In this document: piece by piece, positions 3,697-7,157 of the stretch
Numbering within the stretch: position 1 is the first letter of the stretch
Layout: each line of letters starts with the position of its first letter
Assembly (NCBI RefSeq): GCF_034092375.1
Contig: NZ_CP139302.1
Coordinates: 1,736,001-1,800,000 of the forward strand
DNA: 64,000 nucleotides
Source: Prochlorococcus sp. MIT 1300
Lineage (GTDB): Bacteria > Cyanobacteriota > Cyanobacteriia > PCC-6307 > Cyanobiaceae
Reading direction: 5' to 3'
The notes under the pieces: model-generated
Told to the model about the DNA's origin: nothing
Seen by the model: only the letters and a program-made list of their open reading frames with translations
Database searches by the model: none
Position numbers and translations under genes: made by a program

Positions 3697-4449
3697 TTAC
3701 CCCATAACCATTCCTCCATCAACTTGTAGGACCTGTCCTGTTATATATGCAGCAGCAGGATCCGCTGCTAAGAATCGAACACTTCCAGCTATTTCTTCTG
3801 GTGAACCCAATCTTGCCAAGGGAATTGCTGTCAATATTGGTTCTACATTCAAACCCTTAGTCATATCTGTTTCAATGAATCCTGGTGCAACTGCATTGAC
3901 CGTAATTCCCCTACTGGCAAACTCTTTTGCGGAGCTTTTTGTTAAACCAATGACACCTGCCTTTGCTGCAGCGTAATTAGCTTGTCCCGCATTTCCCATT
4001 AGTCCAACAACAGATGTGATATTTATAATTCTTCCTTTTTTCTGCTTAAGCATTGTTCTGGCAACAGCTTTTGTACATAGAAAAACTCCTTTTAAGTTGA
4101 GATTCATAACTGCTTCCCAGTCTTCGCTTTTCATTCTCATCAAAAGGCCATCACGGGTAATGCCTGCATTGTTTACAAGGATGTCTATCTGACCACTTTT
4201 TTCAAGGATGGTTTTGAAAAGATCATCAACCTCTATTTCGTCAGCAACGTTTGCCTTGACGCTGTAAGCAACCCCTCCAGAACTCTCTATTGCTTTAACT
4301 ACTTCGTTGGCTTTTTCAGGGGAATTGGCGTAGTTAATCACCACTTCTGCTCCAGAATTAGCAAGCGCTAGTGCAATTGCCCGTCCTATGCCACGACTTG
4401 CTCCTGTTACTAGGGCAGTTTGACCTTGGAGTTGAGTTTGGAAAGTCAT
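3697..4449 (-). CDS. fabG: 3-oxoacyl-[acyl-carrier-protein] reductase
   Basis: NADPH-dependent reductase of type II fatty acid elongation, acting on 3-ketoacyl-ACP in the cytoplasm. The 250-residue SDR protein shows the cofactor motif TGASRGIG at residues 15-22, NNAG at 93-96, catalytic Ser146 and the Tyr159-x3-Lys163 pair, and the FabG-like ending with ITGQVLQVDGG. Length and motifs match FabG rather than a generic SDR. It lies downstream of the potassium channel gene on the same strand with a 47-base spacer. Another ketoreductase role is possible in theory but less likely. Confidence 0.95.
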   Translation of the reverse strand: MTFQTQLQGQTALVTGASRGIGRAIALALANSGAEVVINYANSPEKANEVVKAIESSGGVAYSVKANVADEIEVDDLFKTILEKSGQIDILVNNAGITRDGLLMRMKSEDWEAVMNLNLKGVFLCTKAVARTMLKQKKGRIINITSVVGLMGNAGQANYAAAKAGVIGLTKSSAKEFASRGITVNAVAPGFIETDMTKGLNVEPILTAIPLARLGSPEEIAGSVRFLAADPAAAYITGQVLQVDGGMVMG

Positions 4450-4496: not shown

Positions 4497-5531
4497 TCAG
4501 CTAGACATTTGCTCTACTGTTTCTAGTGTTTGACCTAAAAGGTCACGTAGGCGAGTCAGTTGAGACTTGCTGCCTAAGACCACAAGTAATTGACCAGGCG
4601 AAATCTCTACATTGCTTCCTGGGTTGGTTATTAAGTTTGAACCATCTCGAATTGCTAAAACCATTGCTCCACTATCTCTTCCTAACTGCAGTTTGGAAAG
4701 ACTTCTATGGGCAAGGTTCTTGAAAAGTTCTGGATTGCTGCTAAGTCGAAATTCTTCAATTTCGCAGTTTGATCCTGCTAGTAAATCCATAAAGTCAACT
4801 GCTAAGGGACGTAATGCCGTGGCTGCCATCGTTCGACCGGCGGCGACATAAGGACTAACTACAACGCTTGCCCCAGCAAGCTTCAGCTTGACTGCCGCTT
4901 CTTGACTCTCAGCTCTCGCAATGAGACGACATTCTGGACGTAACCCTTTTGCGCTAAGAATTACATACAAGTTGGCAGCATTATTAGGAAGGGTTGCCAC
5001 CAAGCTCTTGCATTTCTCCAATCCAGCCATTAACAAAGTTTCATCTAATGTTGCATCAGCCTGTAAAACATTAAGGCCACATTCTTCGGCTGCAAGCTTT
5101 CTGGAAGGGTCAATCTCTACAACTAGTATTGGAACACCTTCTAAAAGAAGTTGCTCTGCAATCTCCTGACCTATTCGTCCATAACCGCAGACAATTACGT
5201 GATCACGCATGCGACGTATGACTCTTCTAAACCTTAGCTCTTTGAGCTGCCGAAAGTAGCCAGAGTCCGCCAGCCTTAGGATTCTCTGGATAGTTAATTG
5301 CACAACAATCAAACCACCAGTGATTATTAGTACTGTTACGACACGTCCCGCTGCACTTAGAGGCTCTACTTCTCCAAACCCTATTGTTGTAATAGTGATT
5401 AGGACCATCCACAGACAATCTCCTAGGTCCCACCCTTCTGTAAGCCTGTATCCAATTGTTCCTCCTATAACCAGTAAATTCAAGGCAAGGATTGGGCCGA
5501 GCCAGGGCTTTGTTAGTGCGCGCAGCTTCAA
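4497..5531 (-). CDS. potassium channel with RCK/TrkA regulatory domains
   Basis: A 344-residue two-helix channel protein. TM1 spans about residues 10-28, a pore helix and selectivity filter TTIGFGE lie at 48-54, TM2 at about 62-80. A TrkA-N (RCK) nucleotide-binding domain starts near residue 111 with the GYGRIG motif at 116-121 and a Val-Val-Glu-Ile-Asp strand end; a TrkA-C domain forms the last ~80 residues. This is the MthK-like architecture, in which ligand binding to RCK gates the pore. The filter reads GFG, a known variant of GYG. It lies next to the remains of a glycosyltransferase gene on the same strand. Confidence 0.9.
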   Translation of the reverse strand: MKLRALTKPWLGPILALNLLVIGGTIGYRLTEGWDLGDCLWMVLITITTIGFGEVEPLSAAGRVVTVLIITGGLIVVQLTIQRILRLADSGYFRQLKELRFRRVIRRMRDHVIVCGYGRIGQEIAEQLLLEGVPILVVEIDPSRKLAAEECGLNVLQADATLDETLLMAGLEKCKSLVATLPNNAANLYVILSAKGLRPECRLIARAESQEAAVKLKLAGASVVVSPYVAAGRTMAATALRPLAVDFMDLLAGSNCEIEEFRLSSNPELFKNLAHRSLSKLQLGRDSGAMVLAIRDGSNLITNPGSNVEISPGQLLVVLGSKSQLTRLRDLLGQTLETVEQMSS

Positions 5532-5576: not shown

Positions 5577-6412
5577 TTATAAGCCAAGCATGTTAAAAAT
5601 TTTCTCTTCATTTATTGTACGCAAGTGATGTTCACCTGACTTTATACAATAGATTCCTTGTAAGTCTGGCCAGGTTTATTTATCATTCCCTAAACTTATT
5701 AAGGGTATTCTATGGAATAGATATAGAAGTTGAGATGTATAGAAATTTGTTATTACAACATCAGAGGATCCTATTTCGCTCGATCTAAGTCGAAAGATTA
5801 GCCCCTTGAAAGTATCTTTGTTTGAATATTAGGTGATTTAGTTCTTAGTTTAAAGGCAAGATCTATCCAGATTTGTTTGAGGTAATCTCCTTTGCTCTAC
5901 CTTAGTAACAGCAGTATGAGTGGGTCATCTCCACTTGGAGGATTCCTTCTGGCCTCAGCTAAATTCTTGCTTGGTAATGATGTTCGAAATTTACTTGCTT
6001 CTAGCTTTACTCCTAAAGATGTTAAATAGCTTTCCCATTGTTGCGCGGGCCAAGTATTAGAAAGTCTTACAATATTATTAGCAGCAAAACCTTCTTGGGT
6101 AATTCGATTGGGGGATTTGGCTAATTAAGAGCATTAAATTTATTGGATTACCTTTAGAGAATTTGAGACATGTTTGGAAGCCTGCTTCTCTTATGGCTCC
6201 TAGCAAATGGGCCCATTCTACTAGTGAGGTTTGGGACTGAGTTGCGAAAGGAATTACTTTCTCAATTGATTGTAAAAACAGAAAACCTCAGTTGCAGAAG
6301 GCTCGCATATAATTTGTCGACGAGCATTAAGCTGTTTGTTTAAGCTCCCTAGTGTAGTTAGCTTTACAAGCTGCTCATCAATAGATCCTGGACTGAGAGC
6401 AAGCACACGCAT
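5577..6412 (-). pseudogene. decayed family 9 glycosyltransferase (heptosyltransferase-like), full length
   Basis: Read on the minus strand, an ATG at 6410-6412 opens a frame beginning MRVLALSPGSIDEQL, which matches the N-terminus of cyanobacterial GT9 proteins (MRVLALxPGGIGDQL). That frame stops at TAA 6254-6256; homology continues in another frame (VIPFATQSQTSLVEWAHLLG, then IREAGF), returns to the first frame near 6124, and meets TAG 5897-5899, TAA 5798-5800 and TAG 5771-5773. After a further shift it reads SSDVVITNFYTSQLLYLF, with TAA 5676-5678, and ends at TAA 5577-5579 after Asn-Met-Leu-Gly-Leu, as intact homologues do. About 278 codons remain, with roughly six lesions. GT9 enzymes add sugars to the lipopolysaccharide core. 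Confidence 0.85.
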
Positions 6413-6485
6413 CGAATGAGGTCTTATGAATTATGTAAGTGGATTTGATGAAGAAATCCTCACTATTTACCTGTAGGACTTGAAC

Positions 6486-7157
6486 ATGCACCTTTTAATT
6501 GCAGCAGCTGGAAGCGGTCGCCGAATGGGTGCTGATAAAAATAAGTTGCTTTTAAATCTCGCTGGTCGAGCAGTCTTAGCGTGGACTTTGGATGCGGCTT
6601 TTGGAGCTGAATCAATTCATTGGATTGGAGTAGTTGGACAAAATAAAGACAAAGAGTCAATTATGGATCTAGTGGTTAATACCTCTAAGCCAATTCAGTG
6701 GATTGAAGGCGGGGAGACTAGACAAGAATCTGTAAAGCGGGGCTTAGCGGCTTTACCTGCAGATGCAACTCAAGTTCTCATTCATGATGGGGCGAGATGC
6801 ATGGTTGACCCGGCTTTTTTTGATAAATGTTCGGAGGAGATGTTCTCAGGACAGGCTGTAATTGCTGCAACACCAATTACAGATACGATTAAGCAAGTTG
6901 ATAGTCATGGCCTTATAGAAACAACACTTGATCGTTCAGTGTTGTGGGCTGCCCAAACACCACAAGGATTTGTAGTTGAAGACTTGAAGAGAGCCCACAT
7001 TGAGGCGGAGATTAGAGGTTGGAGTGTTACTGATGATGCATCGCTTTATGAGCGACTTGGCTGGCCTGTAAAGGTATTGGAGTCAAGTCCATCAAACATA
7101 AAGGTCACAACACCGTTTGATTTGTCTGTTGCTGAAGCACTCCTTGAGATTAGGTAA
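6486..7157 (+). CDS. ispD: 2-C-methyl-D-erythritol 4-phosphate cytidylyltransferase
   Basis: Third step of the MEP isoprenoid pathway: MEP plus CTP gives CDP-methylerythritol and pyrophosphate. The product (223 residues from ATG 6486) begins with the CTP-binding loop [10 protein letters not shown] at about residues 6-15, followed by a Lys-rich segment (Asp-Lys-Asn-Lys) that holds the active-site lysine, and has the IHDGARC motif and the C-terminal [10 protein letters not shown] motif of IspD. A TTG two codons upstream is a possible alternative start. It supplies isoprenoids for chlorophyll, carotenoids and quinones. Its 3' end overlaps the convergent carboxypeptidase gene by 8 bases. Confidence 0.96.

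Follow-up and report, generated by a model that had tools for sequence, protein, structure and literature searches.

What stood in the stretch between a K+ channel gene and ispD, what broke it, and what did its product do? The window, that is, the whole 64,000-nucleotide stretch of DNA analysed, comprises bases 1736001-1800000 of a single-contig 1.855 Mb genome. The original prediction, made from the letters alone, described a gene desert filled by a full-length GT9 pseudogene, lost recently, whose disappearance had simplified the sugars of the outer membrane. The description as a desert holds only for the approximately 950 bases that separate the K+ channel gene from ispD; the flanking genes are intact.

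The broken gene and its intact counterparts

The pseudogene occupies 5577..6412 on the minus strand and is a full-length relic of an ispD-linked, GT9-derived gene. Next downstream lies the intact K+ channel/TrkA-N gene (4497..5531, minus strand; PF07885, PF02254 and PF02080), followed by fabG, the fourth gene of the ancestral order (3697..4449, minus strand; TIGR01830 above cut-off). On the other side ispD is the divergent neighbour (6480..7157, plus strand; PF01128 with E = 1.9e-71, TIGR00453 above cut-off). Among named records this ispD is nearest to Prochlorococcus single-cell genomes, at 69% identity, although the window's own record has possibly been left out of that comparison.

A profile of 278 columns was derived from the intact copies that 24 genomes carry at this position, and the minus strand from 6440 to 5560 was aligned to it with frame changes permitted. 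The best alignment runs from 6412 to 5580, takes in 278 of 278 profile columns and scores 437.5, with 102 relic residues identical to the consensus. By comparison, 100 dinucleotide shuffles scored 31.2±4.1, with a maximum of 46, and the opposite strand scored 31; elsewhere in the 64 kb window no tile clear of the relic exceeded 56. The relic thus stands for a protein of about 278 residues, and the frameshift-aware comparison that had been proposed as a check returned a full-length match. A separate six-frame search with profile A1 (from the alignment of intact picocyanobacterial copies) recovered three pieces, with E-values of 3e-22, 3e-16 and 8e-7.

Both ends were found where they had been predicted: the ATG at 6412, reading MRVLALSPGSIDEQL, and the NMLGL-TAA terminus at 5577-5579. 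Between them the alignment falls into four segments, all on the minus strand. The first, at 6280..6412, is N-terminal and covers profile columns 1-44 (A1 match at G000:C1:1742254-1742412). The second, at 6114..6278, is in another frame, covers columns ~46-100 and includes ...EKVIPFATQSQTSLVEWAHLLGAIREAGFQTCL... (A1, E = 3.1e-16). The third, at 5794..6112, covers columns ~101-206 and carries stops at 5897-5899 and 5798-5800; the A1 match here (E = 3.2e-22) encloses one TAG and one TAA. The fourth, at 5577..5792, is C-terminal (columns ~208-278), with a stop at 5676-5678 ahead of the original terminator.

In all, three frame changes disrupt the gene, along with three stops or, on another reading, four. 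The stops that had been read at 5897, 5798 and 5676 are all in frame in the best alignment. Whether a fourth, at 5771, belongs with them depends on the site of the third frame change: a change downstream of this stop would leave it in frame, but the best alignment switches near 5793 and so bypasses it. At least three frame changes had likewise been called and three exist, the first two lying near 6279 and 6113 rather than at 6256 and 6124, positions that in so decayed a sequence cannot be fixed exactly.

The position of the relic is orthologous to that of an intact gene. An intact open reading frame stands in the same place in 24 genomes, Synechococcus-like relatives among them, in the usual order fabG, K+ channel, GT9-like gene and divergent ispD, as the original prediction had expected of relatives; the copies of G044 and G075 are both intact. 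The same four genes in the same order are present in a cyanobacterium from outside the family (L007), and in three further out-of-family loci (L005, L015 and L017) ispD adjoins the GT9 gene. The arrangement is therefore old.

In most of the small Prochlorococcus-like genomes the gene has been deleted, which leaves fabG directly beside ispD or the K+ channel gene alone. The intact-family profile matches 123 of 201 sampled family genomes, a figure that counts relics as well as intact copies. The same search found clear relics only in the window genome, G001 and G019, with a trace in G002, and no detectable gene in most other small genomes. The G001 relic (L114) is an open remnant of 225 codons from which the C-terminal part is missing; that of G019 (L141) is an N-terminal remnant with seven stops. 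The K+ channel/TrkA-N gene is likewise absent from most small Prochlorococcus-like genomes, so that fabG adjoins ispD (loci L034-L061), and in several genomes the channel is kept and the GT9-like gene is gone. A tree of ispD and fabG is consistent with loss within the Prochlorococcus radiation and is too short to count the losses or to order them firmly. A search of phage records gave no match.

Glycosyltransferase ancestry and the lipopolysaccharide assignment

On the intact picocyanobacterial copies PF01075 does not reach its cut-off, with weak matches in five of 19 and a best E-value of 8.8e-4. Single intact sequences gave no usable match in Pfam, NCBIfam or the PDB, and NCBIfam made no assignment for the one intact copy tested. 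The out-of-family orthologues, in turn, pass PF01075 (7/7). Since the picocyanobacterial profile matches proteins of the ispD-linked type from other cyanobacteria (hmmsearch E-values up to 1.9e-42; hhalign 99.9%), and since these proteins pass PF01075, descent from GT9 by way of this intermediate is sound. On this evidence the part of the original prediction that named a full-length GT9-derived pseudogene stands.

The function attached to it is another matter. The idea that the lost gene encoded a classical LPS-core heptosyltransferase draws on this GT9 ancestry: a profile of the ispD-linked, PF01075-positive orthologues of other cyanobacteria (A2) matches the heptosyltransferases WaaF (4.8e-14) and WaaC (9.3e-7). 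Against it, the picocyanobacterial copies fall below the PF01075 cut-off and have mostly lost D13 (WaaC numbering), which we take to be the catalytic-base aspartate of GT9. An aspartate occupies this position in three of the 24 intact picocyanobacterial copies, compared with 21 of 24 from outside the family, and the picocyanobacterial copies have lost the D-S-x-P-M-H motif as well. The best relative of known structure, moreover, is not a heptosyltransferase but chloroplast PnsB1. Finally, heptose and KDO are both missing from the LPS of the marine Synechococcus strains WH8102 and CC9311 (PMC4515613). We consider an LPS-core role for this gene unlikely, and, with that role not supported, its loss cannot be read as a simplification of outer-membrane sugars. 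That claim is unproven: most small Prochlorococcus-like genomes share the loss, and other PF01075 matches remain in the genome.

These other matches lie outside the window (G000:C1:1304871, 1328207, 1346391 and 1354298), one of them at 1.5e-16, and cluster with an HldE-like kinase, itself below cut-off, at 1.30-1.35 Mb in what is perhaps a surface-sugar region. With TIGR02198 as a probe for the heptose pathway no sampled genome rose above the cut-off, and 14 of 14 control genomes were also matched.

In the intact picocyanobacterial alignment Q14 is kept and an HIP block is invariant, while position 13 varies; the H of this block replaces a G that is invariant in other cyanobacteria. The pattern suggests that the picocyanobacterial copies may have a conserved but different role. 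A structure predicted from the single sequence of one intact copy (L070) had a mean pLDDT of 39.9, too low for use.

Decay and loss of the gene

The closest intact copy is that of G044, with which the relic shares 38% identity; for the neighbouring K+ channel the figure is 78%. In pairs of genomes with intact copies and a K+ channel identity of 75-85% this gene is 51-72% identical. Sixty-one columns are conserved in 23 or more of the 24 intact copies, and the relic retains 36 of these; when each intact copy was left out in turn, every one kept 85% or more of the columns on which all the others agreed. The GC content of codon positions 1 and 2 is 0.42 in the relic and 0.49-0.51 in the flanking genes. 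Decay is thus well advanced, and it has proceeded without a large deletion, as the starts of the channel gene and ispD lie equally far apart (-955) in the window and in G044. The original prediction had the gene lost recently, on the grounds that both ends are still readable. An identity of 38% where 51-72% would be expected, together with the loss of conserved columns, makes this doubtful, although the decay carries no absolute date.

A truncated protein could conceivably still be produced and serve a purpose, such as an internal fragment or the 52-residue N-terminal peptide at 6254-6412, which is an open reading frame of 52 codons from the original ATG. Open reading frames of similar size are, however, common by chance within the window, the conserved residues have been lost over the entire length of the gene, and from other lineages the stretch is gone altogether. 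The gap between the channel gene and ispD gave no RNA family in Rfam, and scans for promoters, terminators and repeats found none above chance. We regard continued use of such a product as very improbable. Sequencing or assembly errors in an intact gene, typical sources of stops and frameshifts, which are read here in the one genome that represents the genus, are less credible still, given six independent breaks within 836 bases between unbroken neighbours, a single 1.86 Mb contig of 99.98% completeness, independent relics in other genomes and a decay that extends to the surviving codons, which read errors do not produce.

Our preferred reading, to which we give a probability of about 0.94, is that the locus holds a pseudogene, the decaying remnant of an ancient cyanobacterial gene adjoining ispD, with a GT9-derived product, which became dispensable, was disabled during Prochlorococcus genome reduction and has mostly been deleted elsewhere. 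This gene lies upstream of the K+ channel gene and fabG, with ispD divergent on its other side. The copies still intact in the Synechococcus/Prochlorococcus family form a distinct, fast-evolved branch from which the catalytic aspartate of GT9 has largely gone. As Prochlorococcus genomes were reduced the gene would have become dispensable and been disabled by frameshifts and stops, and most lineages would later have deleted it, often along with the K+ channel gene, the window genome keeping an eroded full-length relic with no sign of continued use. The relic, the gene order, the distribution and the decay were observed; the order of these events, and dispensability as the cause of loss, we infer. 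In itself the dead gene is a commonplace outcome of genome reduction, and the relic offers one well-resolved case of staged loss in Prochlorococcus-like genomes, in which the gene is in turn intact, broken, shortened and gone.

PnsB1 and other known systems

Against solved structures in the PDB the A2 profile finds chloroplast PnsB1 best (3e-35, 8e-35 and 1.9e-28), followed by a bacterial GT9 (6e-18) and then by WaaF and WaaC. The PnsB1 structures are PDB 9grx, 7eu3 and 7wff, and the cyanobacterial loci concerned are L153-L164. In the reverse direction, a search with PnsB1 from 9grx gave matches in 53 of the 59 cyanobacterial genomes, in nearly all cases at a single place, with a best E-value of 4.3e-31 and approximately 32% identity over its length; ispD stands beside the match in 10 of the 12 best loci. 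PnsB1 and the out-of-family orthologues are thus reciprocal best matches, a relationship confined to these orthologues, and the profile of the picocyanobacterial branch gave no direct match to PnsB1.

A tree with only five outgroup GT9s groups PnsB1 with the cyanobacterial orthologues (support 94.1/95) and sets this clade apart from those five (90.9/95). With the same five outgroups the AU test weakly rejects a position of PnsB1 outside the clade (p = 0.042), and alternative positions give values of 0.06-0.10. Ten non-cyanobacterial genomes supplied no additional GT9 outgroups. As judged from sequence comparison, shared descent of PnsB1 and the ispD-linked cyanobacterial gene is well supported.

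Two structural papers treat PnsB1-PnsB5 as unique to chloroplasts (PMC12170339, PMC11629750), the former with the addition 'absent in cyanobacteria'. If the family of the relic gave rise to PnsB1, then it is present in cyanobacteria, contrary to these descriptions. In the open papers, to which our search was confined, PnsB1 was linked neither with GT9 nor with any gene of cyanobacteria, and we do not claim priority. We lean towards a combined view in which the family is the cyanobacterial source of PnsB1 and the picocyanobacterial branch had drifted from glycosyltransferase catalysis before its loss in Prochlorococcus; given such a drift, the job of the gene was probably not LPS-core synthesis. 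The family looks more like an ancestor of PnsB1 than a proven sugar-coat enzyme.

Of the bacterial genes found here, the conserved ispD-linked one, which probably carries a heptosyltransferase label, seems to be closest to PnsB1. Should this be true, the origin of PnsB1 could be put to a direct test in laboratory cyanobacteria, and the assignment of the cyanobacterial gene to LPS would be open to doubt; this relationship, with the doubt that it casts on the label, is the most useful by-product of the analysis.

Of the systems with which the locus can be compared, the closest is the set of A2 orthologues. These share with the picocyanobacterial branch the MR.L.L.PG....Q start and the S-ADW-NLLG block, are homologous to it over the full length and, in several genomes, likewise stand divergent beside ispD. 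They differ in their size of ~310-340 residues and in mostly possessing D13 and D-S-x-P-M-H, whereas the picocyanobacterial branch, at ~278 residues, mostly lacks both. The relation to WaaC and WaaF is remote, and unlike these enzymes the intact picocyanobacterial copies show no conservation of the catalytic D13. Chloroplast PnsB1 (NDF1/NDH48), a subunit of NDH subcomplex B, matches the A2 orthologues over the full length and groups with them in the tree with five outgroup GT9s; it differs in being a plant protein with an N-terminal extension that forms part of the NDH-PSI supercomplex. As for gene loss in general, two accounts of Prochlorococcus genome reduction (PMC3940434, PMC10837832) describe non-essential genes lost in small-genome lineages, as is the case here; the window genome departs from its relatives in that it retains a full-length relic of a stretch that most of them have deleted.
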